From assembly GCA_945900945.1 (NCBI GenBank), contig CAMDKL010000008.1, forward strand, positions 1-64,000: a DNA stretch of 64,000 nt, read 5' to 3'. Every line of letters starts with the position of its first letter. The stretch's first letter is position 1. The DNA comes from Pirellula staleyi DSM 6068. Lineage in GTDB: Bacteria; Planctomycetota; Planctomycetia; Pirellulales; Pirellulaceae. Under the pieces are notes generated by a model, which made no database searches, was not told where the DNA came from, and saw nothing but the letters and a program-made list of their open reading frames with translations. Of this stretch, positions 2,128 to 38,247 are shown in pieces. The translations under genes and the position numbers were made by a program.

Positions 2128-3870
2128 TTGGCACCCCTTTACTTCCAATTTTCCCGTCCACTCGCGCTGCCGACCTTGGTTTGGCTGATCGCTCTGGTCT
2201 TGCCATCGTTGGCTTCCGAGCTCGAAATCCATACGACTCGCCAAACACCGGTATCCGGTTTTCCGGGTCAATTTCATCGCGTCCAGATACCGGCCCGGTG
2301 GCAGTCCACTGAAACAGCCATCATTATTTGCGACGTTTGGGATTCTCATCACTGTGTCAACGCAGTGCGGCGTGTCCAGGAAATTGCACCACGTATTGAT
2401 GCACTCGCCGCTGCTTTACGATCTAACGGGGCGACGATTATCCATGCTCCGAGCGGATGCATGGATTTTTACACGACCCACCCAGGACGAATTCGAGCCC
2501 AGTCCGTTGCGACCGCAGCAAACCTTCCAACAGATATTGCGAGTTGGTGCGACCGTATCCCGAGCGAAGAATCGTCTGCTTACCCTATCGATCAGTCCGA
2601 TGGCGGTGAAGACGATGATCCAGTCGAACACCAACAATGGGCCGAAAAACTAGCCAGTGAAGGTCGAAACCCTAAGGCACCTTGGAAACAACAAATTGCT
2701 ACCATCCGCGTCGATTCCAAACGCGACTTCATCAGTGACTCGGGTAACGAAATTTGGAACATCCTGGAGTCAAAAGGAATCAAGCAAATTTTGGTTTGCG
2801 GCGTTCATACCAATATGTGCGTGCTTGGGCGACCCTTCGGCTTGCGACAGCTTTCAAGTCATGGCAAGAATGCTGTCTTGATTCGCGATTTGACCGACAC
2901 GATGTACAACCCACTCATGTGGCCGTACGTCAATCATTTTTCTGGAACGGATCTCATCATCGATCATGTCGAGCGATATGTATGTCCAACGATTACTAGC
3001 GACCAGATTTTTCGGGCAGGCAAGGACCGTCCGGCTGAGGACAGCCGGACCTACGTGGATCGTCCGGCTGAGGACAGCCGGACCTACGTGAAATCGCAAA
3101 GAGCATCGCAACTGCTTCCTTTTCGATTTTCAACGGATCGACGACCGCACTTGGCGATCCTCATTGCGGAGGATGAATATGAGACGGCTAAAACACTGCC
3201 GCTTTTCGCAGCAACGCATTTGCATCCTCAACTGCGGGTTTCGATTATTCATGGTGATTCAAAGGACCGGACGTCCATCCCTGGCATAGAAGCGATAGAT
3301 GACGCGGACGCTTTGCTGGTCAGCGTCCGCCGAAGGCCATTGCGATCAAGTGACTTGGAGAGGGTTCAGGCGTTCGTTAAAGCGGGGCGGCCGGTTATCG
3401 GTATACGAACTGCGAGTCATGCATTCTGTTTGCGAGATGGAAAGCCAGTGGATGGGCTTGAGCAGTGGCCGGAGTTTGATGCGTATGCTTTAGGTGGCAA
3501 CTACACGAATCATTACGGAAATGAATTTCGACCTACGGTTCGAAAAGCGGGCGCCGACGCTACAACACTTTTTACTAGCCAAGGTTCACTTTACCGAGCC
3601 TCTCCGTTGAAGGCTGGAACACGTATCTTGTTGAACGGAAAGATTGAAGGAAAGCCTGAGGAGCCAATTGCTTGGACTTACGTGCGAGCGGACGGCGGTT
3701 CCTCATTCTATACGTCACTAGGTCATTCAAGTGATTTTGCTGAGCCAGCGTTTCAAGAGCTGCTTACGAATGCTGTTTTGAATGCGTGTGGTTTAGGAAG
3801 TCTAGGTGCAGACCAAATCAAGGAGCAACAGCGGCGGTATTCCACGGGAAAAGGGCGGCAGAGGAAATAA
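2128..3870 (+). CDS. Secreted isochorismatase-like / ThuA-like fusion protein
   Basis: This 580-residue two-domain protein probably starts at TTG 2128, because an AAAAGGA ribosome-binding site lies seven bases upstream and the next residues form a signal peptide (LALPTLVWLIALVLPSLASE). Residues about 35-290 are a cysteine-hydrolase (isochorismatase-like) domain with Asp69 in IICDVWD and the nucleophile region GVHTNMCV (Cys231); Lys187 may complete the triad. Residues about 325-575 resemble a ThuA / class I amidotransferase-like fold with LLVSVRRRP and GRPVIGIRTASHAF. The linker carries two copies of an 11-residue peptide, DRPAEDSRTYV (residues 300-321), encoded by a palindromic DNA repeat. 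The two domains usually occur as separate proteins in planctomycetes. The substrate is unknown; export to the periplasm is inferred. Confidence 0.85.
   Translation: MAPLYFQFSRPLALPTLVWLIALVLPSLASELEIHTTRQTPVSGFPGQFHRVQIPARWQSTETAIIICDVWDSHHCVNAVRRVQEIAPRIDALAAALRSNGATIIHAPSGCMDFYTTHPGRIRAQSVATAANLPTDIASWCDRIPSEESSAYPIDQSDGGEDDDPVEHQQWAEKLASEGRNPKAPWKQQIATIRVDSKRDFISDSGNEIWNILESKGIKQILVCGVHTNMCVLGRPFGLRQLSSHGKNAVLIRDLTDTMYNPLMWPYVNHFSGTDLIIDHVERYVCPTITSDQIFRAGKDRPAEDSRTYVDRPAEDSRTYVKSQRASQLLPFRFSTDRRPHLAILIAEDEYETAKTLPLFAATHLHPQLRVSIIHGDSKDRTSIPGIEAIDDADALLVSVRRRPLRSSDLERVQAFVKAGRPVIGIRTASHAFCLRDGKPVDGLEQWPEFDAYALGGNYTNHYGNEFRPTVRKAGADATTLFTSQGSLYRASPLKAGTRILLNGKIEGKPEEPIAWTYVRADGGSSFYTSLGHSSDFAEPAFQELLTNAVLNACGLGSLGADQIKEQQRRYSTGKGRQRK
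3025..3090 (+). repeat. Tandem 33-bp palindromic repeat inside a coding region
   Basis: Two 33-bp copies (3025-3057 and 3058-3090) differ at one base. Each contains a perfect 9-bp inverted repeat, GTCCGGCTG/CAGCCGGAC, with a 4-base loop (first copy: arms 3029-3037 and 3042-3050). The length is a multiple of three and the reading frame is kept, so the repeat adds 22 residues to the linker of the isochorismatase/ThuA protein. The composition is unlike the flanking coding sequence, which suggests an inserted and then duplicated mobile palindrome. Confidence 0.85.
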
Positions 3871-3896
3871 ACTTAGGTAGCAGACTCCATGTAGAA

Positions 3897-3999
3897 TCGT
3901 TCATCCTCCGAATGCCCCCGAGTTTATCTCGGGGGATCGTTACCATCGCTCTCGAACAGATGGTCAGAACCCTCGGCGTAAAGCCGAGGGCATGAACGA
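3897..3999. repeat. REPIN-like doublet of two inverted hairpins
   Basis: This 103-bp intergenic element has perfect 8-bp terminal inverted repeats, TCGTTCAT (3897-3904) and ATGAACGA (3992-3999). It contains two hairpins: CCCCCGAG/CTCGGGGG (3915-3922 and 3928-3935) and CCCTCGGC/GCCGAGGG (3970-3977 and 3983-3990), each with a 5-base loop. Read in opposite directions the halves align with each other (TCGTTCAT, then the G/C stem, then a TTTA-type loop). This is the architecture of a REP doublet. It lies between the 3' ends of two convergent genes and may also act as a bidirectional terminator. Confidence 0.7.
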
Positions 4000-4031
4000 A
4001 TGCTAATCGATCGCGGAGCGATCGGCCACAT

Positions 4032-4418
4032 TTATTTTGGGCCGTAGCATTGGTCGAGAAGTGTTCGAATGGTGTCGGCAAGCAGATTGAGGCTAAAAGG
4101 TTTTGACAACACTTGATTTGTCCTTAGTTGCCGTGCTCGCGTTACGATCGATTCGTCCATCTGCGCAGACATAAGTATACAAGGCAAGTTAGAACAAGTA
4201 TCGCGAAGCGATTGGAGCATACCGAGGCCGTCTAACCGCGGCATATGGACGTCCAGCAAAGCTAGGTGGATATGTTGGCTGCGAATCACTTCCAATGCTT
4301 CAACCCCATCGGCAGCAAGAACCGTCCGGTATCCACGTCGGGAAAGAGCTTCGCCCAAAGACAATCGAAAATCTCGATCGTCGTCTGTTATCAACAGGTT
4401 AGGCTCTAGCATTTGCAT
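4032..4418 (-). CDS. Single-domain response regulator (CheY-like receiver)
   Basis: This 128-residue protein is a stand-alone phosphoacceptor receiver. It shows the acidic cluster DDD (residues 12-14), the phosphorylatable Asp56 in LALLDVHMPRLDGL, Ser84 in LMSAQ and Lys106 in LSKPF. It has no output domain, so it would act by binding a partner, as CheY or Spo0F do. No histidine kinase gene is nearby. The start is uncertain: ATG 4418 and ATG 4412 are both possible, with GGAG about 15 bases upstream of 4418, and an upstream in-frame TTG at 4475 would almost touch the divergent gene. The last bases lie about 30 bp from the palindromic doublet. Confidence 0.88.
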   Translation of the reverse strand: MQMLEPNLLITDDDRDFRLSLGEALSRRGYRTVLAADGVEALEVIRSQHIHLALLDVHMPRLDGLGMLQSLRDTCSNLPCILMSAQMDESIVTRARQLRTNQVLSKPFSLNLLADTIRTLLDQCYGPK

Positions 4419-21944: not shown

Positions 21945-23222
21945 CTAATAACGATTGTTGCCGTTAAGGATGTACTGAAAACCGAACGTGAAGAAGGAAA
22001 TGAGAGTGAAGTTGGCGACCTCTTCCTTGGGTGAAAATCGCAGTAGCAACTTATCTCCTGGCTTTACAATCAATCGCTCGCGTGGATCACGAATTGCCTT
22101 GACTAGGTCGATCTTGATAGTAATCTCATCGCAATGGTCGTTCTTTCGAAAAACGAAAAGCTGTGTTGGAGCAACGCCTGTGATACCCATCAGCCCGCCA
22201 CCACCACTACCTGCGTGTCCATACGAATAACCAGCGATAGCCATCGCTTCAAAGATGTCGATGTCGTAGTCACGCGGTATCGGGTGCTGTCCTCCAGGTA
22301 GCATCCCTGCCGTGTAGAAGACTTCGGATTCCCGGCTTTCGATGTAAATGATATCTCCTTCATTGAGGATCGATCCGTAGACTGGAGTCACAAGGTACTC
22401 GCGTGTCAATTTATCCAAGGGAGCTGCGTACTGAGTCAACGCAATGGTTCGGGGCTCCTCAAACGCGGGCTCGTGGTAGCCGTCGCTATCCTGTGCATAA
22501 AGATTCTTTGGATCGACCTCTAATGCGGCCGAACGTATTTGAGGTAAAATAGTCACTTCGTCTTTTGCATTCGGGCCAGGCAATCCTCCCGTTTTTAAGA
22601 GAGCGTTTAGGACGTCATTGCGATAGGCGTCCAAACGAATGGAGGCGCTCGAGGTTGAGCCAAGATCTCGACGAATGACCGAAACGCTGTACGTGCGCTG
22701 CTTCAAAAGCGAAATCATAGGATACAGTTCGCCTCGACCTGACTTTCCATTTTTAATAGAAGCTTCACCGACTAGTTCACGAACTTCATCAAGTGTTTTG
22801 CCTCGAACCATGATCGGGGCAACTCCCGGCAACAGTATCGTTCCGTTTTCCTGAACCACCATCGGGAATCCCGTCGATGGTGGAAGACGACTTTCTTCTG
22901 TGGGAAAGTTGACGGGCAATGGGGCCGGGGGAGATGAGGGTGCGGCATAGGGGAGTATGCCTTCGATTGCAATCCCAAGAACATCTCCAGAATCCAAACG
23001 GTAAACGCTTGGCGTCGCTTGACCAAGCAATCGATAATCGATCGGAACTCGATGGTTGCGTGTGGGCGGACGTAACGAATCGGAAAGCTCGCTCGCCGGA
23101 ATGCTACCCTTGATCCGGAACAGGAGAGCATTGCACCCGGAACTGGTAAGGAAGAATGGGATTAAAACACTGATCCAGACAATCGGGCGAAACGAACCTT
23201 GACAGCCAATGTTTGAAGTCAC
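21945..23222 (-). CDS. Polysaccharide export lipoprotein (Wza-like)
   Basis: This is a 425-residue outer-membrane export protein. The start is GTG 23222, chosen because AAAAGGA lies about six to eight bases upstream and the sequence then forms a lipoprotein signal ending in LTSSGC (Cys30). A longer reading would bury this signal. The Poly_export domain begins at SVYRLDSGDVLGIAIEG and continues with NGTILLPGVAPIMVRGKTLD. SLBB-like segments follow (YGSILNEGDIIYIESRE, PRERLIVKPGDKLLLRFS). Wza-type proteins form the channel through which capsule or exopolysaccharide crosses the outer membrane. No tyrosine kinase or Wzx/Wzy gene is adjacent. Confidence 0.88.
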   Translation of the reverse strand: MTSNIGCQGSFRPIVWISVLIPFFLTSSGCNALLFRIKGSIPASELSDSLRPPTRNHRVPIDYRLLGQATPSVYRLDSGDVLGIAIEGILPYAAPSSPPAPLPVNFPTEESRLPPSTGFPMVVQENGTILLPGVAPIMVRGKTLDEVRELVGEASIKNGKSGRGELYPMISLLKQRTYSVSVIRRDLGSTSSASIRLDAYRNDVLNALLKTGGLPGPNAKDEVTILPQIRSAALEVDPKNLYAQDSDGYHEPAFEEPRTIALTQYAAPLDKLTREYLVTPVYGSILNEGDIIYIESRESEVFYTAGMLPGGQHPIPRDYDIDIFEAMAIAGYSYGHAGSGGGGLMGITGVAPTQLFVFRKNDHCDEITIKIDLVKAIRDPRERLIVKPGDKLLLRFSPKEEVANFTLISFFTFGFQYILNGNNRY

Positions 23223-23420
23223 AACGAAATCCTTTTCCGTAAATAGCGAGCTCGAAATCCTTTCGCGAGCCTCGCAAGATTTATCGCCAACAGGAAAGGG
23301 ATGTGCCATAAAAAACACGGAGACGACCCCCAAAACTCGTGACGAGGTTCTGAGCGAGCGGCCTTTACCAAATGTGTGGGTACAAGCCAACGGTTGTATC
23401 GATTTTGTTGATTATTCTGG

Positions 23421-23465
23421 TATTTCTAGTATTTCTAGTATTTCTAGTATTTCTAGTATTTCTAG
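23421..23465. repeat. Five perfect 9-bp tandem repeats
   Basis: TATTTCTAG is repeated five times without a mismatch. It lies in the divergent promoter region between the export-lipoprotein gene and the PEP-CTERM gene. Slipped-strand changes in copy number would alter promoter spacing. Confidence 0.9.
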
Positions 23466-23501
23466 TTGAATAGGGGTTTCGGTCATCTAATCTAGGATTG
23501 T

Positions 23502-24320: not shown

Positions 24321-24734
24321 TCGAAAGAAAAGCCAACCGCAACCGAGGATCCTTCTCGAATTGCAATTTATGAGAAGTCACTTAAACACCCCGGGTTCAT
24401 CTCGGGGTGTTTTTTTGTTTTAAGGCGAGCGGCGGCCTGAAAACGACCTAAAATGGTCCGATCGATTTGACGAGCATTCCTACTCGTACTCGATGACAAG
24501 CGATCGAGTAGCAACGGTCTTTAGTTTTGTGGCTTTTTTTGCCCAAGAAAGATCTTGGGCAGCTTGCCAGCGTGGACTCGTGCTGGGGCTGTTGAGCCAG
24601 ATTTGTACACTTTAAGAAGTGACCGACCGATTCGAAAGTCCCCTCTTGCGTTCCAGTCGGACAAACCGAAACGGGACGTGAGGAGTAACGAGGAATCACA
24701 ACCGAAAATCTTCCACCCCAATGGAAAGCCATTA
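24321..24734. other. Gap between the PEP-CTERM gene and the next gene
   Basis: This contains the terminator at 24384-24416 and about 320 bp without a supported gene. A plus-strand frame upstream of 24735 is open for 60 codons, but the ribosome-binding site and the signal-like N-terminus favour ATG 24735 as the next start. Confidence 0.5.
24384..24416 (+). terminator. Rho-independent terminator of the PEP-CTERM gene
   Basis: AAACACCCCG (24384-24393) and CGGGGTGTTT (24403-24412) form a perfect 10-bp stem with a 9-base loop, followed by a run of T. Confidence 0.85.
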
Positions 24735-26009
24735 ATGCACACACATCACTTGCGAAGGCGGTTTTTAGAAAAGATTGGCCTATTGCTTCCCGTCGTTCAT
24801 TCCATGAAAGCCTTGGCGGAAAACAAGACCAACGTACCGTTGCCACCGATTCGTGCAATTACTCGCGGCCCAAAGTTCCATTGGCGAGGCTATTATGACA
24901 AACTGTTATTCGATCCTACAAACCGATTCGTGCTTTCCAATGAAGTGGATTTCAATGGTCGCTCGCCTTTGCCAGCGGACTCTATTCATATCGGTTTCAT
25001 CGACACCGAACATGGCGATCAATGGATTGAACTTGGCAGGTCCTCGGCATGGAATTGGCAGCAAGGATGTATGCTGCAATGGGTTCCCGGTTCCGAAAAT
25101 GAAGTTGCTTGGAATGACCGCCAAGACGGTCAATATGTCTCCCACATTCTCGACATCCAATCAGGACGCAAGCGCACGTTGCCCAATCCTTTCTATTGCC
25201 TGAGTCCCGATGGAAAAATTGGCTTTGCGCCGGACTTTCGGCGTTTAAATGACACACGGCCTGGCTACGGATACGCCGGGGTTCCCGACCCCAACAAGGA
25301 AGTGCTTGCGCCGGAAAACGCTGGCATCTGGAGGATAGACATGCAAACGGGAGCTCAATCGCTAATTTTTTCGTTCGCGGATGCTGTAAAAATTCCATTC
25401 GCGGGACGCTCAGACGCGGACTTCAAACCCGCTTCGAAACATTGGTTCAACCACCTGCTCTGCAATACAGACGGTACACGTCTCTTCTTTTTGCATCGAT
25501 GGCATGCAATGGGCGATAAGTCGTCGTTTTACACCCGCGCGCTCACGATGAACTTAGATGGATCCGATGTGCACGTAATCGATCCGTGGGGCGGGACTTC
25601 GCATTTCGTGTGGCGAGACCCAAGCCATATTTTTGCGTGGGCTTGGCATCCATCCCACCGAGATCGGTTCTACCTCTATGAAGACAAGAGTGACAGAGTG
25701 CAGGTTGTCGGTCCCGAAATGATGTCGGCAAATGGCCACAATACTTATGTGCCTGAAACCAATAACGAATGGGTATTGAACGACACCTATCCAGACTCGA
25801 ACATGCTTCAGCATCCGTATCTTTATCACATCCCAACCGACCATCGCGTGCCGCTTGGCCATTTCCTTTCGCCGCTGACGCATCGCGGGGAATGGCGATG
25901 CGATAATCACCCATGTTCAAGCCGCGATGGAAAGAAAGTTGCATTCGACTCACCGCACGATGGCGGTCGGCAAGTCTATCTCATCGATATTAGCGAAATC
26001 GTCAGTTGA
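24735..26009 (+). CDS. Exported TolB/oligogalacturonide-lyase-like beta-propeller protein
   Basis: This is a 424-residue protein of uncertain function. ATG 24735 is preceded by GGAAAG at a good distance and begins with a signal-like LRRRFLEKIGLLLPVVHSMK. The body has repeated strand motifs of a WD40/TolB-like propeller: RSSAWNWQQGCMLQWVPGSE, DPSHIFAWAWHPSHRDRFYL and CSSRDGKKVAFDSPHDGGRQ with VYLIDISE. Similar propellers occur in oligogalacturonide lyases and in many planctomycete secreted proteins. Catalytic residues could not be assigned. It ends 13 bp from the convergent ABC permease gene. Confidence 0.7.
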   Translation: MHTHHLRRRFLEKIGLLLPVVHSMKALAENKTNVPLPPIRAITRGPKFHWRGYYDKLLFDPTNRFVLSNEVDFNGRSPLPADSIHIGFIDTEHGDQWIELGRSSAWNWQQGCMLQWVPGSENEVAWNDRQDGQYVSHILDIQSGRKRTLPNPFYCLSPDGKIGFAPDFRRLNDTRPGYGYAGVPDPNKEVLAPENAGIWRIDMQTGAQSLIFSFADAVKIPFAGRSDADFKPASKHWFNHLLCNTDGTRLFFLHRWHAMGDKSSFYTRALTMNLDGSDVHVIDPWGGTSHFVWRDPSHIFAWAWHPSHRDRFYLYEDKSDRVQVVGPEMMSANGHNTYVPETNNEWVLNDTYPDSNMLQHPYLYHIPTDHRVPLGHFLSPLTHRGEWRCDNHPCSSRDGKKVAFDSPHDGGRQVYLIDISEIVS

Positions 26010-27348: not shown

Positions 27349-28118
27349 ACTTCAACCGGCATATTATCTAAAGCGTATTTGGCCGCCGTGTCGCGGACCT
27401 CTTGTGAGTTGAAACGATCCCATTGCAGGCGGCCATCTTTCAAGCGGATGACCCGTTTGGCTCGCTTAGAAACCTCATCCTCATGCGTGACTAGAATGAT
27501 CGTTCGTCCCTCGTTGTTGAGTTTTTCGAACAGTTGCAGAATTTCTTCGGCAGTATGGGAATCGAGATTTCCAGTCGGTTCGTCCGCGAGAATAAAGAAA
27601 GGATCGTTGACCAGGGAACGAGCGATCGCGACTCGTTGCTGTTGACCACCACTCAATTGTGTTGGACGGTGAGTGAGGCGCTCACCCAAGCCGACCAAGT
27701 GGGCCAATTCAATACTCCGTTCCTTTTGTTTTCTCGAAAGCGATTTACCCTGATAGAATAGAGGGACTTGTATGTTTTCAACGACCGTGAGCTGCTGGAT
27801 CAGGTTGTACGCCTGAAAGACGAACCCAATCCTCTGTGACCGAATATCGGCGAGCTGGTCGTCGTTCATCTTTGCAGCATCGTCGTTGCCCAACCATAGA
27901 CTGCCTGAAGTCGGTTGGTCTAAACAGCCGAGCATGTTCAGTAGCGTGCTCTTGCCGGAACCTGACGGGCCCATGATGGCCATGTAGTCCCCCTCAGGGA
28001 CATCGAACGTCACGCCTCGCAAAGCGCGAACCGTTTCACTTTTTAAGACATACTCCTTTTTAAGGTCCGCGACGCGGCAAGCAAATCGGTTTGCTTGCTC
28101 TGATTGTGTGTCCATCAT
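27345..28118 (-). CDS. MacB/LolD-type ABC transporter ATPase
   Basis: This is a 257-residue nucleotide-binding subunit. It has Walker A GPSGSGKSTLLNMLG, signature LSGGQQQRVAIARSLV and Walker B FILADEPTGNLDS, followed by ILVTHEDE with the switch histidine. It belongs to the MacB/LolD/FtsE class, which pairs with FtsX-like permeases. It shares one base with the end of the upstream adaptor gene and overlaps the permease start by 4 bp, so the three genes form a tightly coupled operon. A short N-terminal extension (SEQANRFACRVADLKKEYVL) precedes the core. Confidence 0.93.
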   Translation of the reverse strand: MMDTQSEQANRFACRVADLKKEYVLKSETVRALRGVTFDVPEGDYMAIMGPSGSGKSTLLNMLGCLDQPTSGSLWLGNDDAAKMNDDQLADIRSQRIGFVFQAYNLIQQLTVVENIQVPLFYQGKSLSRKQKERSIELAHLVGLGERLTHRPTQLSGGQQQRVAIARSLVNDPFFILADEPTGNLDSHTAEEILQLFEKLNNEGRTIILVTHEDEVSKRAKRVIRLKDGRLQWDRFNSQEVRDTAAKYALDNMPVEV

Positions 28119-29899
28119 TAGTTGGACGGCGCTCCACGTGCAGCTCCACTGCCTCCGCCGCCGCCAGTTGCCATTCTCTTGCGAAGCTGAGCGACTAATT
28201 CTGATTGATCGATCGAACCATCCTTGTTGGTATCGTAATCTGTAAAACTGTTCTTCATTCGTTCGTTGTCTGCGACTTCGACCAAACTCAGCTTTCCATC
28301 GGTATTCGCATCCATTCTTACCAACATGGCAGCAGCAATTGCAGCGGGATCACCACCACCACCCTTATCGCCGCCACTTGGGCCGTCTGGTGCAGGACCT
28401 TTTCCTGACCGGGCACTCGAGGGCGTCGAAATAGGTGTCTGGGATGTAATCTTTGCCAGCGCCTCGCGATCATCGGTTTCTTCAATTTCAGGGAGATCCA
28501 TTTTGTCGATATGGTTTCGAGGATCGAGCACGACCTTATCTTGAGAGACAACGCCTTGTTTTATGGTGACAAACCTATCATTCGTAGCACCGATCTTGAT
28601 TTCTCGGGTTTCCCATTCTTTCTCATTTTGGACTAAAACGAAATGGTGCTTTTTAGTCTCATAAACGGCATGGACTGGGATCTGAATCACATCCGGAATC
28701 TGTTCTACAAAGATTCGAACCTCGGCCGTCATACCCGTACGAATCTCTTGGGGTGGATCTACGATCTGCACAATTACAGCGTATTCTTTGACGTTGGATC
28801 CAAAATAGTTTCCCGGTTCGGCATACTTGTTTACCTTGGTGACCCGTCCGAGAAGTTCATTGTCCACCGCACCAACGTTGATTTTCACGGGCATGCCATC
28901 ACGTATCAAGGTTATGCGAGACTCGTTCACTTTGGCTTTCACTTGCATGCGACTGGGATCTGGCAGCAGAAAAACTGTTTGCAGTTCACGCACGAGCGAA
29001 CCAGCAGCCACGATGAAATCACCGCCTGAGCGTCCACCAAATTTATTGGCGTAGACAACTTGACCATCTGAGGGTGCATACAACGTACATGCTTTGATCT
29101 GCTGTTGGATCTCTAGTAGTTTGTTCTTTTCTTCAAAAGCCGTACTCTTGTCTGATAATAGTTTCGCTCTGGCTGTCTCGATATCGCTATTGAATGTGAC
29201 CAGCATTTTTTCTTTGGTCAAATTGTCTAAAACTCTTAATTTACCTTGGGCCGATTCCAACATCCTCTGCGAATTTTGAACCGCGAATTGCTCGGACTCG
29301 ATTTGCAGCGCTTTGAGTGTTCCCTTGGCCGCGAGTCGCTCCGCGCTTTGAAGCGACAGTTCCGCTTTTCGAAGACCCTGTTGTTGGATGGCAATATCAC
29401 TCAATATCGTCTTTTGTTCCGTCAAATATGTGCCCTCAAGATACTCTTGTTTAGCAATAGCTGCCCTGCTGACTGCTGCTTCACTACTGATCACAGTCGA
29501 TTCCGCGGAACTTACAACGATCCTTTGATTCTTAACGTCTTGATCCAAAGAGGACGAATCCAGTTGGCAAAGTTCATCCCCTTTCTTAACAATGACGCCT
29601 TCGAGGACTAGGGAGAGAATCGGCGTACCACTGCCTCCTCTGCCTTTTACCTCACACTTGACTTCGTTGTTGCTGCTGCTTTCAATTTCGCCCTGTTCCA
29701 ACACAATGTGATCAAAGGGCCCGCTCCGCACTTCATGCAAAAGCAGCTCTTTGTCCAACGCAGAATTCGAAGTCGTCTCTGAGTATTGCCACCAGACGAA
29801 GCCGCCAACGCCAAATAATAAAACCGCAATCGCGATAAACAGGGTGACTTTAGCGGAGCCTCGTTTGTCTTGTGAAAGTCTGTGATAGTGAAAAGACAT
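28118..29899 (-). CDS. MacA/HlyD-type adaptor with C-terminal EF-hands
   Basis: This is a 593-residue periplasmic adaptor. It has one N-terminal membrane helix (VTLFIAIAVLLFGVGGFVWW), a lipoyl-like/barrel-sandwich half around residues 60-120, a long coiled-coil hairpin (about 125-275, Glu/Gln/Ala rich), the second lipoyl half (YAPSDGQVVYANKFGGRSGG) and beta-barrel and membrane-proximal domains up to about 470. After a Ser/Pro/Gly-rich linker the C-terminus adds two EF-hand loops, DANTDGKLSLVE (530-541) and DTNKDGSIDQSE (556-567). Standard MacA proteins are about 370 residues and have no EF-hand. The first gene of the exporter operon; calcium control of the pump is an inference from the loops. 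Confidence 0.88.
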   Translation of the reverse strand: MSFHYHRLSQDKRGSAKVTLFIAIAVLLFGVGGFVWWQYSETTSNSALDKELLLHEVRSGPFDHIVLEQGEIESSSNNEVKCEVKGRGGSGTPILSLVLEGVIVKKGDELCQLDSSSLDQDVKNQRIVVSSAESTVISSEAAVSRAAIAKQEYLEGTYLTEQKTILSDIAIQQQGLRKAELSLQSAERLAAKGTLKALQIESEQFAVQNSQRMLESAQGKLRVLDNLTKEKMLVTFNSDIETARAKLLSDKSTAFEEKNKLLEIQQQIKACTLYAPSDGQVVYANKFGGRSGGDFIVAAGSLVRELQTVFLLPDPSRMQVKAKVNESRITLIRDGMPVKINVGAVDNELLGRVTKVNKYAEPGNYFGSNVKEYAVIVQIVDPPQEIRTGMTAEVRIFVEQIPDVIQIPVHAVYETKKHHFVLVQNEKEWETREIKIGATNDRFVTIKQGVVSQDKVVLDPRNHIDKMDLPEIEETDDREALAKITSQTPISTPSSARSGKGPAPDGPSGGDKGGGGDPAAIAAAMLVRMDANTDGKLSLVEVADNERMKNSFTDYDTNKDGSIDQSELVAQLRKRMATGGGGGSGAARGAPSN

Positions 29900-30426: not shown

Positions 30427-31404
30427 ATGGCATCCGATTTTCGACTCAAGGAACAGCTTCCACGCCTGACGGATGCGATAGTGCGCAGCTACAAGGCACA
30501 AGATCGCATCAATCACCTAGGGCATTGCCCCCTCCCTAAGTACGAAGTGATCGTGCAGATCCTGGAGGACCTAAAGGACTTGCTTTACCCGGGTTTTCGC
30601 CGCCGGGAGGGCTTGCACGCGGGCAACATAACCTACCACGTTGGCAATTTGGTGGATGCCTTGCATGATCGGTTGACAACGCAAATTGCGAGAGCGTTGC
30701 TCCATTCTGACCGTGTGGATGCCAAGTCACCGAACGTGAACCCTTGCGAAAACGCGATCGACTATGAGGCGAAAGGTCAAGCGATAGCGATTGCACTTTT
30801 AGAGAGAATCCCGCAGCTGAGAGCCGCCCTGGAAAAGGATGTCGAAGCTGCCTACGAAGGTGACCCAAGCGTTTCCAATCGCGACGAGATTATTTTTTGT
30901 TTCCCAGGTTTAGAGGCGGTTACCATCTATCGTATCGCTCACGAACTGGTCCATTTCGCTGTCCCTTTTATCCCTCGTATGATGACGGAATGGGCTCACA
31001 AGCAGACAGGGATAGATATCCACCCCGGCGCAACGATTGGCGACTTCTTTTTTATTGATCACGGCACGGGCGTGGTTATCGGTGAGACCTGCAACATTGG
31101 CGACCACGTCAAAATCTATCAAGGAGTGACACTCGGCGCGTTGAGCTTCGCAACCGATGCCGATGGCCAATTGATTCGCGGCACGAAGCGTCATCCGACG
31201 ATTGAGGATCGGGTTGTCATCTATGCGAATGCAACCATTCTCGGAGGACGAACGACCGTTGGTCACGATAGCGTTATCGGTTCAAGCGTGTGGGTCACCA
31301 GTAGTGTGACGCCGCATTCGACCGTTGTTTTGGAGAAGCCCAAGCTACGAATTCGAAGCGGCCAGCCTGATGAATGGATGCATGATTCGAACTATCAGAT
31401 ATAG
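30427..31404 (+). CDS. cysE: Serine O-acetyltransferase
   Basis: This 325-residue enzyme would transfer acetyl from acetyl-CoA to L-serine, the first step of cysteine synthesis. The helical N-terminal part (1-160) ends in [17 protein letters not shown]. The left-handed beta-helix follows with [20 protein letters not shown] (catalytic Asp211-His212), [20 protein letters not shown], and [20 protein letters not shown]. It belongs to the longer bacterial EpsC/SAT group. ATG 30427 fits the family start, though no strong ribosome-binding site is seen. It is followed 8 bp later by a ketosynthase-like gene and then a cysteine desulfurase, suggesting a sulfur-related operon. Confidence 0.92.
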
Positions 31405-31412
31405 GTCGCGCG

Positions 31413-32747
31413 ATGAACACTAGGGAGTTTGTTGGGGCAGACGAAATCGTCATTACCGGTTACGGTGCCATCACACCGCTCGGCCATGATGTCGAATCGT
31501 ACTACCAGTCATTGATGCGCGGGAAGTCTGCGGTTGGGTTACTTGCGCCTGAGTTGGGTGTAGATGGAACGCACTGGCTGAGTGCGGTCATTCGTGACTT
31601 CGATCCCAAAGTGCACGTCCAACCTCGCAAGTCGATCAAGGTCATGTGTCGGGAGATTCAGTTGGGCTTCGGTGCCGCCATGCAAGCGTTCAAGATGGCA
31701 AGCATTACGGCTTGTCCTGTCGATCCGGATCGGATTGGAACTGTGTTTTCGGGTGAAATGTTTTTTAGCGAGACGGCCGACGTCGAGAGCATTGTCCGAT
31801 TGTGTTCTTACAACGGCAAGATGGATCATAGCCGCTGGGCGGTTGAGGCGATTGAAAACATGAATCCGCTGTGGATGTTAAAGTCCCTTCCGAACATGGC
31901 TGCATGCCACGTCGGAATTGCGCTAGATGCGCGAGGCCCAAACAATACGATTACGACGCTTGGCACGAGTGGTTTGAACGCGGTATTGGAAGCTATTAAC
32001 GTGATTCGTCGCGGAAAAGCTGACGTCATGGTCGTTGGTTCTACTGCTTCACAAAATACTTTAACGCGAATGTTTCAACGCTACGACGAGGATTTTTCCA
32101 AATCGTACTCCAGTCCGTCAACAGCTTGCAAACCCTTTGATTTGGCTCGCGATGGTTCCGTATCTGGCGAATCGGCTTCTGCCGTTATCCTGGAACGCCG
32201 TTCGCACGCGGAGTCGCGGGGCGCAACCATCCTCGGTTCGATTTCCGCTTGGGCCAATAGGTTTGGCAAATCCACGCAGGGCCGATGGAGTGGAACGCAG
32301 AGCGCGACAGAGAGTACATTATCGACATTGCTCGAACGGTCTGGATTGAGCGTGAAAGACATCGATCACGTGAACGCATGCGCCAACGGCACGATCGCTT
32401 GCGATGCTGGGGAATCGCGAGGTATCGCCAAAGTCTTAAAAGATGTGCCTGTTGTTTCGTACAAGGGTGCCATTGGCGACTGCGTTAGCGGGTCGGGGCT
32501 TATCGAATGGATCGCATCCTTAGCGGGAATGAGAGCGGGAGCCATTCCGCCAACGACAAACCATGAAACGACAGCTGCTGATTGCCCGGTAAACGTTATC
32601 TCGAAAACAGCAAAGCCGCGGAACGCATCGAATGCCATTAAACTTTCGCTTACGCACCAGGGCCATTGTGTTGGCATAGTGTTTTCGGTGGCGACCATTT
32701 CTGCGGTCCCAGTTTCTATCGTTCCCGTTGTTTCAGCGGTCCTTTAG
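31413..32747 (+). CDS. Ketosynthase-like protein lacking catalytic residues
   Basis: This 444-residue protein has the thiolase fold of beta-ketoacyl-ACP synthase II. It begins VITGYGAITPLGHDVESYYQ and contains CKPFDLARDGSVSGESASAV and GCVS-type glycine motifs. By alignment with FabF in memory, the active-site cysteine of TACTSG is Gly184 (TLGTSG), the first histidine of NAHGTST is Cys323 (VNACANG), and the second of TGHLLGAAG is Asp356 (IGDCVSGSG). Only the lysine (Lys351, VSYKGA) remains. Such a protein cannot decarboxylate or condense malonyl units in the usual way. It could be a chain-length-factor-like or scaffold subunit, or a thiol-binding pseudoenzyme. It is tightly packed between cysE (8 bp) and the desulfurase gene (2 bp). 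Confidence 0.8.
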   Translation: MNTREFVGADEIVITGYGAITPLGHDVESYYQSLMRGKSAVGLLAPELGVDGTHWLSAVIRDFDPKVHVQPRKSIKVMCREIQLGFGAAMQAFKMASITACPVDPDRIGTVFSGEMFFSETADVESIVRLCSYNGKMDHSRWAVEAIENMNPLWMLKSLPNMAACHVGIALDARGPNNTITTLGTSGLNAVLEAINVIRRGKADVMVVGSTASQNTLTRMFQRYDEDFSKSYSSPSTACKPFDLARDGSVSGESASAVILERRSHAESRGATILGSISAWANRFGKSTQGRWSGTQSATESTLSTLLERSGLSVKDIDHVNACANGTIACDAGESRGIAKVLKDVPVVSYKGAIGDCVSGSGLIEWIASLAGMRAGAIPPTTNHETTAADCPVNVISKTAKPRNASNAIKLSLTHQGHCVGIVFSVATISAVPVSIVPVVSAVL

Positions 32748-32749
32748 GC

Positions 32750-33934
32750 ATGGCAATTTATCTCGACAACCAAGCGACGACTCGAGTCGACCCGGCAGTC
32801 ATCGCCGCGATGATGCCCATGATGGATCTGTATTACGCAAATCCTGGGAGCACAACACACGAAGCCGGTCGTTTGGTTGGCGAGTTAGTCAACGACGCGA
32901 TTCAACGGATTGCAGACCATTTCAACGCGAGCAGCGACGAAATTATCGTCACCAGCGGTGCTACGGAAAGCAATAATCTTGCATTGTTTGGCGTCGCGAT
33001 GCATCCCAAACAAAAGCGACGCTCCCTAGTCTCGCTCGTTACCGAACACCGAGCTGTGCTCGATCCGATTGCCAAGTTAGAAAGGCTTGGGTTCGAGGTT
33101 ATTCGATTACCGGTTGTGCAAAACGGTCATCCCGAAGCTGGCATCGTCGAGCTCGACCGGCTAGCAAATGCAATCAGTGACAACACTGCCCTGGTCAGTA
33201 TCATGCTGGCGAACAATGAGATTGGAACTCTACAGCCGATCGCCGATATCGCCAAACTGTGCCAACGATTTTGTATCCCACTTCATACCGACGCCAGTCA
33301 GGTTGTGGGACGCATGCCCATCGATGTCCAATCGCTAGGCGTCGACTTGTTGAGTTTTTCTGCACACAAGTTTTATGGCCCGAAGGGAATGGGTGGGCTG
33401 TATGTTCGTCAGTCCCCAACGCCCGTAAAGCTCCAAGGCCAAATCTTGGGGGGTGGCCAGCAATTGAATCTTCGTTCTGGCACGCTCAATAGCGTTGGGA
33501 TTATCGGCATGGCTAAGGCTTTGGACATTTCGCACCAGTCTTTTGGCCCCGAAATGGCAGCTCAGGAACACCTTAGGAATTTGCTTTGGGCATTATTGAA
33601 TAAACGGATTGATGGTCTCAAACTGAATGGTCCAAATTTGGCTGCGGAAAACCGTTCCTCAAGATTGGTAAGCAACCTTAACGTCTGTTTCCCCATGGTG
33701 GAGGGGCAGTCATTGATGTTGGAATTGCCGGGTTTGGCTGTAAGTAGCGGAAGTGCTTGCACGTCCGCTGAACCGCATCCTAGCCATGTTTTGTTGGGAA
33801 TTGGACTAAGTGTGGACGAAGCTAGATCCAGTTTGAGGTTTGGCATTGGCCGATTTAATACGGAAGCTGAGATCCTGCAGTCGGCGGAATGGTTGGGAGA
33901 GGCTCATGCGAAACTTGCCCACTTTGTAGCTTGA
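32750..33934 (+). CDS. Cysteine desulfurase (NifS/IscS family)
   Basis: This 394-residue PLP enzyme takes sulfur from cysteine to make a persulfide for Fe-S clusters, thiamin or tRNA. It begins MAIYLDNQATTRVDPAVIAA, which sets ATG 32750 two bases after the previous stop. It has TSGATESNN, His100 in VTEHRAV, the PLP lysine in SFSAHKFYGPKG (Lys207) and the catalytic Cys337 in VSSGSACTSAEPHPSHVLLG. The short SACTS-type loop belongs to the NifS/IscS (class I) group. No iscU, iscR or iscA lies beside it. Together with cysE two genes upstream it links cysteine synthesis to sulfur mobilisation. Confidence 0.93.
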   Translation: MAIYLDNQATTRVDPAVIAAMMPMMDLYYANPGSTTHEAGRLVGELVNDAIQRIADHFNASSDEIIVTSGATESNNLALFGVAMHPKQKRRSLVSLVTEHRAVLDPIAKLERLGFEVIRLPVVQNGHPEAGIVELDRLANAISDNTALVSIMLANNEIGTLQPIADIAKLCQRFCIPLHTDASQVVGRMPIDVQSLGVDLLSFSAHKFYGPKGMGGLYVRQSPTPVKLQGQILGGGQQLNLRSGTLNSVGIIGMAKALDISHQSFGPEMAAQEHLRNLLWALLNKRIDGLKLNGPNLAAENRSSRLVSNLNVCFPMVEGQSLMLELPGLAVSSGSACTSAEPHPSHVLLGIGLSVDEARSSLRFGIGRFNTEAEILQSAEWLGEAHAKLAHFVA

Positions 33935-35429: not shown

Positions 35430-36521
35430 ATGACTAAACGCATCTTAATTGTTCGTCTATCTGCGATTGGGGACTGCATCCTCAGTGTCCCCGTCCTAAA
35501 CTCAATTCGTCGCAATTTTCCGGACGCTCGAATCGGCTGGGTTATCGAACGCACGTCATCGCAACTCATCCAAAATCATTCAGCACTCGATGAACTATTC
35601 ATCGTCTCCAAGCGCGCGTTCAAGTCACCTCGAGAACTATGGACTCTGGTAACGAATCTGCGAACGTGGAAACCCGACATTACCCTGGATTTGCAGGGGC
35701 TAACCAAGAGTTCACTCATCGCATGGTTATCCGGCGCTAAAGCCCGACTCGGATTCCATCGCGATATCTTCGATGGTCGAGAACTGAGCTGTTTTCTGAA
35801 CAATCGACTTTACAAACCGGAGTCGCAGCACATTGTCGATCGAAGCTTAGAATTATTAAGACTACTCGGTGTTCACGACTCCAAGGTGGCATTCGATTTG
35901 CCCGAACAAGAAACCGATAGCAATTTTGCAGAACGAACTATCGCGTCACTACAGCTAGAAGGTCGGTTTGCCATCATTAACGTCGGCGCAGGTTGGGTTT
36001 CTAAAATTTGGCCATCGAATCGATACGCTAGCATTGCCAAACATCTCGGGGAACACTGGGGGATGCCATGCCTAGTGGCTTGGTCAGGTGAAAAGGAAAA
36101 ACTAGCTGCCAACGAAGTCGTTATCGAATCGGGTGGACATGCGATGCTCTCGCCTGCGACAACACTTTCACAATTAGGCAGTTTGATTCGCCGGTCGAGC
36201 TTATTCGTAGGTTCCGATACAGGCCCGATGCATTTATCGGTTGCCAATGGAACGCCAACTATTGGTTTGATCGGACCCATGCCAATCGAGAGAGTAGGTC
36301 CAAGTGGGTCGAACAGCGCCGGCGTACAGAACGTTCGTTTGATAAAAGCATCTGCTCGCAAATTCGACTGTACGCCAATGCTCTCGATTTCTGCCGACGA
36401 GGTGATTCGTGTCTGTGACCAGTTGATGGATCGAGGCCTGCTATTACGATCCACTATTGATTTGCAACCAACCAGATCTGCCCTTCAATGCCTCGCTCGT
36501 TCTGCACTGCCGAGTGTGTAA
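35430..36521 (+). CDS. Glycosyltransferase family 9 (heptosyltransferase-like)
   Basis: This 363-residue cytoplasmic protein resembles WaaF/WaaC-type ADP-heptose:LPS heptosyltransferases. The N-terminus is KRILIVRLSAIGDCILSVPV followed by NSIRRNFPDARIGWVIE. The nucleotide-sugar side has INVGAGWVSKIWP, LFVGSDTGPMHLSVANGTPTI and GLIGPMPIERVGP. GT9 enzymes add heptose or related sugars to the LPS core. It is near lpxD and lpxI, which supports an LPS role. The 3' end overlaps the convergent neighbour by 68 bp, an unusually long antisense overlap. Confidence 0.9.
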   Translation: MTKRILIVRLSAIGDCILSVPVLNSIRRNFPDARIGWVIERTSSQLIQNHSALDELFIVSKRAFKSPRELWTLVTNLRTWKPDITLDLQGLTKSSLIAWLSGAKARLGFHRDIFDGRELSCFLNNRLYKPESQHIVDRSLELLRLLGVHDSKVAFDLPEQETDSNFAERTIASLQLEGRFAIINVGAGWVSKIWPSNRYASIAKHLGEHWGMPCLVAWSGEKEKLAANEVVIESGGHAMLSPATTLSQLGSLIRRSSLFVGSDTGPMHLSVANGTPTIGLIGPMPIERVGPSGSNSAGVQNVRLIKASARKFDCTPMLSISADEVIRVCDQLMDRGLLLRSTIDLQPTRSALQCLARSALPSV

Positions 36522-38247
36522 GAATCCCAAAAGCCGGTTGAACTTGGCTCCATTTGGGGATCTCGGCAGTTGTGAGCCCCGGAACCAGAACATTCGTCAA
36601 ACAAAAAGAGGGTAGATCTATCGCGCCATACTCTTTTTGTGTTGGCTCGGGTAATCGAGTCCAGCTTCGCGCAAACCAAGATCCTAAAAATAGACTCTGC
36701 TGCATCGAGAACAGCGGTGATTTTAACTTTTGCAGATACGAATTCCACAACGCTGGTCTTCCACGGTTAGCCGCCTGAGATGTCCTATTACCCACAAGCA
36801 GTTGCTTGAACCAAGTCGTATCGGTCGACAGATAGAGATACGTGCTGTCGATCGCGACCACCGAGATCGCTTGATTTTCTCCTTTTGATACCGCGACAAA
36901 AAGCGATTCGTCGTTGACAGTATTCCATACCCGATACGATCCGATCTGTTCTGATTTGATATCTTTGTCATTCTCGAAAAGTTTGTTGATCGTAGCCGAT
37001 GCTTTCTTGGAATCTTGCAGCAAACACGCCCAGACTTGATTGTGCTGAATCCTGTCCGCGTTTTTCCTGTCTGGGCTCGATTCGCTAAAGTTAAACATCA
37101 ATGGCCCAGATGGGTAAATCAGCTCCTTTCGAACATCGATCTTCGGTCCTTCTGGGTCCGTTAAGATACTATCGACTAGATCAGCAAAGTTTCCAGGCGT
37201 TTCCTCGTCGATCATCTGATCTACAGCATGGCTTACCCCTTGAAACCAAGGCTTCATGTCGAGGTAGGAAATCGATACCTGATCCATTTCGACACCGAGG
37301 ATTTTAGGGGGCTCAACTCTAGGCCCCCATTTGAAGCTGAGCACCGCAAGGCCCTTTGCCGGAGGCGTAGAGATCTGCTGCGAATAACGAAGTCTCCATG
37401 AATTTTCAGCCGTTGAAGGTGGCTGGATCGCGCCGCTTAACGCCCCAAGTCCGTCAAGCCCGAACAGTTTTGCGGAACGAAATAGTTTGGGATCTTTTTT
37501 GGCAGCATAACCATTTAGAATCGCCCAGGGAGACAACCAAAAACGCGTTTCACCACTTTCCCAGTTGCCTGCTTCAAAGAGTGGTTGAATGGATTCAAGG
37601 CCAGCGGATGCCTGCATGCTTCTCATGGTTGGCGAACCGAGCCATTCTTGCACCGCCGTGGTCGACGAAGAGATACAAGTCCATTGTGAACCAAACGCAA
37701 TGCATACGGACATTTCGGTCTTTCCACCGCTTGCAAGCGAATAGAATTTGGTCGTATCGTTGGACGCAAGCGATTGAAATCGACTCATGCCACCCTGATT
37801 TGCAATCCAACGTTGGACAAAGGAATGCTTTTCTGCATTTGGCCCAAGATTAACCAAGAAGACCAATGTGGTGTCGCCGTTTCTATCCAAGAATGCAGCA
37901 ACCGCCCCAACTTGATCGATTGCACTAATGTCTTGCCAGTCCAAGCCTAACCATGGCTGCGGATTGAGTAACGATCCGATGTTCGTAACCCTCTGCTTTT
38001 CTATGACAGATTGCCAAATCGGGCCACCCAGTTGTTTGCAAACGTCAGATCGCTCCAGCGCAGAATAGCTACTCTTTATATTCTGTGACGTGAACAACAA
38101 TTGCGTTGTTTCGGGAAGCACGTCCGCCAACTTCACTTGGCCGAGGAAATCCTTCGCGCAAACAACACCACTGAAAAACCACACGCATGTTAACCAAAGC
38201 CAAGCTCGGAATACGTTCTGATTGTGATGCAAAGAAAAGTCATTCAT
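36454..38247 (-). CDS. Exported protein of unknown function in an ABC operon
   Basis: This 597-residue protein has a signal peptide (AWLWLTCVWFFSGVVCAKDF) and no family I recognise with certainty. Segments such as LADVLPETTQLLFTSQNIKS, AAFLDRNGDTTLVFLVNLGP and AVVAIDSTYLYLSTDTTWFK recall planctomycete DUF3352-like proteins that follow ABC genes. It is the last gene of the LolD/FtsX-type operon and overlaps the permease end by 8 bp, so it probably works with that transporter in the periplasm. Its own 3' end runs 68 bp into the convergent GT9 gene. The tail at the overlap is ordinary protein sequence, so both stop codons look real. Confidence 0.75.
   Translation of the reverse strand: MNDFSLHHNQNVFRAWLWLTCVWFFSGVVCAKDFLGQVKLADVLPETTQLLFTSQNIKSSYSALERSDVCKQLGGPIWQSVIEKQRVTNIGSLLNPQPWLGLDWQDISAIDQVGAVAAFLDRNGDTTLVFLVNLGPNAEKHSFVQRWIANQGGMSRFQSLASNDTTKFYSLASGGKTEMSVCIAFGSQWTCISSSTTAVQEWLGSPTMRSMQASAGLESIQPLFEAGNWESGETRFWLSPWAILNGYAAKKDPKLFRSAKLFGLDGLGALSGAIQPPSTAENSWRLRYSQQISTPPAKGLAVLSFKWGPRVEPPKILGVEMDQVSISYLDMKPWFQGVSHAVDQMIDEETPGNFADLVDSILTDPEGPKIDVRKELIYPSGPLMFNFSESSPDRKNADRIQHNQVWACLLQDSKKASATINKLFENDKDIKSEQIGSYRVWNTVNDESLFVAVSKGENQAISVVAIDSTYLYLSTDTTWFKQLLVGNRTSQAANRGRPALWNSYLQKLKSPLFSMQQSLFLGSWFARSWTRLPEPTQKEYGAIDLPSFCLTNVLVPGLTTAEIPKWSQVQPAFGILTHSAVQNERGIEGQIWLVANQ

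Follow-up and report, generated by a model that had tools for sequence, protein, structure and literature searches.

The locus and its neighbours

The window, by which we mean the whole stretch of 64,000 nucleotides of Pirellula staleyi DNA that was analysed, carries on its plus strand a gene for a FabF-type ketosynthase (KS) homologue without the catalytic cysteine (Table 1). The open reading frame starts with ATG and contains no internal stops. It is tightly enclosed by its neighbours: only 8 bp separate the end of cysE from the KS start, and a cysteine desulfurase gene begins 2 bp after the KS end.

Table 1. Features of the KS locus in the window (residue numbers refer to the KS protein)
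Feature	Position	Strand	Remarks
cysE, serine O-acetyltransferase	30427..31404	+	upstream partner in 12/12 KS-bearing genomes; DH motif and C-terminal Ile intact
Cys-less FabF-type ketosynthase (KS) homologue, 444 aa	31413..32747	+	genus-specific branch of planctomycete Cys-less KS clade A
Residues 71-83, PRKSIKVMCREIQ	31623..31661	+	among the most conserved blocks
Residues 151-180, NPLWMLKSLPNMAACHVGIALDARGPNNTI	31863..31952	+	most conserved block
Gly184 codon, nucleophile Cys position	31962..31964	+	G/A/N in orthologues; Glu/Asp in 53/53 clade A/B relatives
Cys323 codon, first His position	32379..32381	+	A7 S2 C1 G1 in 11 orthologues; Cys in this genome only
Lys351 codon, conserved KS lysine	32463..32465	+	K9/Q2 in 11 orthologues
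Asp356 codon, second His position	32478..32480	+	Asp in 11/11 orthologues; mostly Asn in clades A and B
C-terminal hydrophobic extension, residues 428-444 (about 17 residues)	32694..32744	+	absent from orthologues (423-432 aa); model pLDDT <50 from residue 430
IscS/NifS-type cysteine desulfurase	32750..33934	+	downstream of KS; adjoins KS in three close species only

Elsewhere in the window, a HlyD/MacA-type membrane-fusion protein (28118-29899, minus strand), which adjoins a MacB-type transporter, bears a C-terminal EF-hand at residues 548-574 (Pfam E 2.3e-6), and this looks like an unusual combination. Two open reading frames, at 36454-38247 (minus strand, 597 aa) and 24555-26009 (plus strand, 484 aa), gave no Pfam matches. 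Additionally, the small frame at 23209-23469 (plus strand) ends in a short repeat reading ISSISSISSISS.

Fold and catalytic positions

The KS protein has the thiolase fold with N and C ketoacyl-synt domains that was looked for as a sign of FabF, and both domains are matched in Pfam (N domain 7.6e-31, C domain 4.8e-15). Its AlphaFold2 model (pLDDT 87.4) superposes on FabF over 402 residues with a Z of 57 and an rmsd of 2.0. FabFs are the best solved relatives: FabF (KAS II; 4ls6, 1j3n, 2gfv) is nearest in both fold and sequence, with 23-27% identity and a Z of about 54-57. PDB entry 9s5h, met during the PDB comparison, contains two KS chains.

The catalytic positions were read from an alignment with the intact ketosynthases of the same genome, from an alignment with E. 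coli FabF, and from profile alignments to PDB chains. For the E. coli FabF sequence, 22 residues, the majority of which appear in the paper on ACP contacts (PMC7138838), served to check the numbering. In these alignments the Cys-His-His triad is absent from the KS, and Gly184, Cys323 and Asp356 stand in its place. The original prediction had named these three residues and had noted that the lysine (Lys351) is retained, and it was right for this genome. It was also correct in stating that this is not the Gln pattern of chain-length factors (CLFs), as a Streptomyces CLF used as a control reads Q/D/K/R.

The gating GFGG loop, with Phe400 in E. coli FabF, is missing too; in the alignment with that protein the KS reads T-H-Q-G at 414-417. 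FabF thus has both the triad and the gate and the KS has neither, and at 214.6 bits the protein does not reach the NCBIfam fabF equivalog cut-off of 493.75. The FabF reaction by the known mechanism cannot be carried out by the KS.

Several other readings of the protein were rejected. A triad that is displaced but present, a case already raised in the original prediction, did not come to light: no Cys-His-His candidate is shifted within the motifs of the alignment, and the model superposes on FabF. Kinship with thiolases or KAS III was dismissed, as the Thiolase_N match stays below its cut-off (22.8 vs 26.4 bits), Cys-His-Asn is absent from the KS, and the best structural matches shown are of the KAS II type. 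MadA, considered for comparison as a ketosynthase-type malonyl-ACP decarboxylase, was dropped, being a hot-dog protein.

Orthologues within the genus and linkage to cysE

The KS gene was found in 11 of 26 congeners, always directly behind cysE. Ten of these orthologues share 58-73% identity with the KS of the window, and the eleventh is interrupted by a contig end. Among the remaining congeners, 11 have cysE without the KS, two have contigs that end inside cysE, and two incomplete genomes match neither gene. Across the 12 KS-bearing genomes the gap between the two genes is short throughout (2 bp at the least, 8 bp in most cases and about 16 bp at the most). The cysE-KS pair is a real, clade-wide operon-like arrangement, and the two genes are probably co-transcribed. 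The original prediction had asked for the order cysE-KS-nifS in relatives. Its first half holds in all 12 genomes; the desulfurase follows the KS in 3 of the 12 species, namely the three closest ones.

The cysE tree places all KS-bearing genomes in a single group (SH-aLRT 100), which also takes in one genome with a contig that breaks off in cysE. In this tree of the genus, no inner branch is longer than that of the KS-bearing clade (0.24), and cysE may therefore have changed at about the time when the KS arrived. The DH motif and the C-terminal Ile tail of CysE are the same in congeners with and without the KS.

Of the replaced catalytic positions, only one is constant. In the 11 full orthologues, that of the window included, the nucleophile position is Gly in six, Ala in three and Asn in two, and the first His position is Ala in seven, Ser in two, and Cys and Gly in one each. 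The lysine is kept in nine and replaced by Gln in two, and the second His position is Asp in all 11. As positions 184 and 323 vary and Asp356 alone is fixed, Gly/Cys/Asp does not constitute a conserved triad.

A wider family of Cys-less ketosynthases

Outside this clade, we sampled 53 relatives, drawn from other genera of the order and from a second paralogue of the window's genus, which form two clades, A and B. All 53 carry an acidic residue at the Cys position (Glu in 44, Asp in 9); the first His is mostly retained, and the second is mostly Asn. The original prediction had named conservation of the replacement residues across many genera as the decisive result. Instead, positions 184 (G/A/N) and 323 (A/S/G/C) vary even inside the genus, other genera have the pattern just described, and Asp356 is fixed only in the genus clade.

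In our trees, which are quick trees of fast-evolving proteins, clade A together with the query received an SH-aLRT of 98. Clade A also encloses the window's clade (SH-aLRT 100), which is nested there within its own family and has a stem branch 0.96 changes per site long. Because of this nested position, the Gly, Ala or Asn that this clade has at the Cys position, where Glu or Asp was not retained, is best read as a derived loss of the acidic residue.

A phylum-wide tree that included other classes united all 41 sampled Cys-less planctomycete ketosynthases in one group (SH-aLRT 99), whose sister is an intact Cys-His-His ketosynthase (SH-aLRT 97). By these trees, the KS of the window descends, as a lineage-specific branch, from an old family of planctomycete ketosynthases without the Cys. 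The Streptomyces CLF pairs with its own KS-alpha (SH-aLRT 90), apart from this group. The free tree thus separates the two, but an AU test with only one CLF did not reject a joint clade of CLF and Cys-less ketosynthases (p 0.31). A convergent origin of CLFs and the planctomycete Cys-less ketosynthases seems likely.

Selection and conservation

In five pairs with unsaturated dS, dN/dS was 0.06-0.14 for the KS and 0.011-0.062 for cysE. The KS thus evolves faster than its neighbour, with dN/dS about 2 to 6 times higher, but values this low mean that the gene is constrained and not decaying. This bears on the possibility that the KS is a relic on its way out, i.e. a decaying ketosynthase kept only by its position in the operon. 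Its long stem branch, its higher rate compared with cysE and its absence from about half of the genus would all suit such a relic. The low dN/dS in close pairs already contradicts decay, however, and the orthologues have full-length open frames with large blocks that are invariant across the clade, which makes the relic very unlikely. An intact gene under selection had been predicted from the start, and the complete frame and the dN/dS bear this out.

To see where the constraint lies, we used a set of 24 positions taken to line the active site in FabF structures. In FabFs these positions are conserved more than any other part of the protein (p <0.0002), but they do not rise above background in the query clade (p 0.18) or in clade A (p 0.59). 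The strongest conservation falls elsewhere, in the two surface-facing blocks listed in Table 1. Block 151-180 includes part of the ACP hydrophobic-patch positions and the strand preceding the nucleophile turn, and we take it to be part of the KS dimer surface. It may thus be argued from the conserved blocks that the dimer interface was retained. In the other block, two ACP contacts of E. coli FabF, Lys65 and Arg68 (PMC7138838), have their aligned counterparts in Lys73 and Lys76. All 64 sequences have Lys at the first of these positions and Lys or Arg at the second. ACP contact region 2 of FabF (Arg127, Lys128, Arg206) and Lys69 are not kept in the KS according to the alignment.

Compared with clade A, 17 sites are fixed differently in the query clade. 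One of them is Asp356, which lies within a remodelled and conserved motif of the KGAIGDS type. Together with the acidic residue at the nucleophile position of every sampled relative, this could point to changed chemistry, in which Asp356 (or the Glu or Asp of clades A and B) would have become catalytic and would act on a thioester of CoA or ACP. An enzyme with a new reaction is hard to reconcile with an active-site lining that is not especially conserved in either clade, with small residues that replace each other at the nucleophile and first His positions of the query clade, and with the loss of the gating loop. We therefore consider changed chemistry improbable.

Gene context of the relatives

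In other genera, clade A genes are orphans, and some of the ten loci sampled have a desaturase, an MMPL exporter or an SDR within a few kb. None of these ten loci, which belong to the nearest relatives of the KS in other genera, has cysE as a neighbour.

This matters for a possible role in cysteine synthesis, in which a silent KS would bind CysE (or acetyl-CoA or ACP) and tune serine O-acetyltransferase or couple it to acyl-carrier status. The fixed order behind cysE with its very short gaps, the long stem branch of cysE in the KS-bearing clade and the desulfurase behind the KS in three species are what such an accessory protein might leave behind. However, 11 congeners manage with cysE and no KS, the loci of other genera lack cysE, and the desulfurase link is confined to close species. 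As the CysE motifs are alike with and without the KS, we regard this role as unlikely. The more specific version, in which a pseudo-ketosynthase was recruited into cysteine metabolism and its Asp356 pocket binds a ligand derived from CoA, ACP or serine and thereby regulates CysE, seems to us quite unlikely. If true, one lineage of planctomycetes would use a pseudo-ketosynthase to couple its cysteine synthesis to acyl-carrier status. The original suggestion of a job in sulfur or thioester chemistry thus finds little backing, all the more so since the ties of the entire clade are to FASII and active ketosynthase genes, and some relatives lie near genes of lipid type.

Those ties take several forms. 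Outside this order, Cys-less KS genes adjoin an intact ketosynthase in G114, G090, G136 and G128. In G114, a distant planctomycete, an Asp-type KS lies 15 bp ahead of the intact one. The locus (L171, 4260-10859) reads fabZ-type, fabG, acp, fabZ-type, Asp-KS, intact KS and GH3-type synthetase, a cluster resembling a KS/CLF polyketide cluster. The gene order in G128 is acpP-fabF-Glu-KS; inside the order, G037 has acpP, an intact fabF and a clade B Glu-KS in that sequence.

The window's own genome has a second Cys-less ketosynthase, of clade B, in which Glu occupies the Cys position and Cys that of the first His. It is found on the minus strand of contig C251 (L057; KS 2660-4141, acyltransferase 1428-2384, SDR 637-1404), directly ahead of fabD-fabG, and the locus has the look of a core FASII one. 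The intact partner in the tandem pairs of G114, G090 and G136 is of the type that stands alone on contig C138 of the window's genome. Intact ketosynthases of this type follow fabA/fabZ-like genes in G006 and G128.

A proposed silent subunit resembling chain-length factors

The explanation that fits these observations best, and in which our confidence is about evenly balanced, is that the KS of the window is a non-catalytic, CLF-like ketosynthase subunit that was moved behind cysE in one clade. A member of the Cys-less family would dock through the KS dimer surface onto an intact Cys-His-His ketosynthase and would shape or stabilise its partner's pocket or ACP contact, with no acyl transfer of its own. 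The likeliest candidate for the partner in the window's genome is the intact ketosynthase that stands alone on contig C138, since ketosynthases of this type pair in tandem with Cys-less genes in other planctomycetes. The KS gene would have come to lie directly behind cysE in one clade of the genus, probably as part of the same transcript, and the same clade would have lost the remaining Glu, His and Asn. The fold, the loss of the whole triad, descent within the Cys-less clade, purifying selection, the invariant Asp356, the fixed cysE-KS order in that clade and the tandem pairs of relatives are observed, whereas heterodimerisation, the identity of the partner, an effect on fatty-acid chains and co-transcription are inferred.

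Some observations run against a CLF-like subunit. With respect to ketosynthase and ACP genes, the KS gene of the window is an orphan, unlike the genes of classical CLFs, and a generic CLF role explains neither the operon-like link to cysE nor the invariant new Asp356. The genome also has FabH and intact FabFs, which makes it less than obvious why such a subunit would be needed. A starter-unit role that would make up for a missing FabH was ruled out, the fabH match in the genome being above the cut-off.

In a KS/CLF heterodimer, one KS is active, and the other is inactive and lacks catalytic residues (PMC12664062). Like the KS of the window, the CLF (KS-beta) of type II PKS, exemplified by the actinorhodin protein 1tqy_B, has the KS fold without the catalytic Cys. 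The CLF has Gln at this position, whereas the KS has Gly and its relatives Glu or Asp. The CLF gene adjoins that of KS-alpha; the KS has cysE and nifS as neighbours, and tandem pairs occur only in its distant relatives. Finally, the CLF is an obligate heterodimer with KS-alpha; a pairing of this kind is predicted for the KS.

Cys-less FabFs have been seen in planctomycetes before. In Rhodopirellula baltica, the FabF-like proteins NP_865682 (Asp) and NP_866153 (Glu) lack the catalytic Cys, and a different, unnamed function was suggested for them (Rattray et al. 2009, PMC2649909). Both stand outside our tree and are linked to the Cys-less clade by their residue pattern: NP_866153 reads Glu/His/Lys/Asn, which is the commonest pattern of clades A and B. 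In comparison with this pair, the window's clade has neither the acidic residue nor the first His, carries Asp in place of the second His, and is located behind cysE. As Cys-less FabFs were already reported in 2009, the KS of the window is a further degenerated variant in a new gene setting. Kuste3606 and Kuste2805 of Kuenenia stuttgartiensis, FabF paralogues in FASII clusters discussed for ladderane lipids, have likewise lost the Cys and both His (PMC2649909). Where the KS has Gly (Cys position) and Asp (second His position), these two planctomycete proteins have Val or Phe and Glu, respectively. The 2009 paper gives no function and no family-wide survey of Cys-less FabF paralogues.

Cys-less ketosynthases that carry an acidic residue in place of the nucleophile, only glimpsed in 2009, thus make up a clade that extends across Planctomycetota and is linked to core FASII genes. 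This suggests that heterodimeric, CLF-like condensing enzymes may be widespread in the fatty-acid or polyketide synthesis of planctomycetes. The KS of the window provides a clean test case, because close species exist with and without it behind an otherwise equal cysE. It shows how far such a subunit may drift while selection keeps it.
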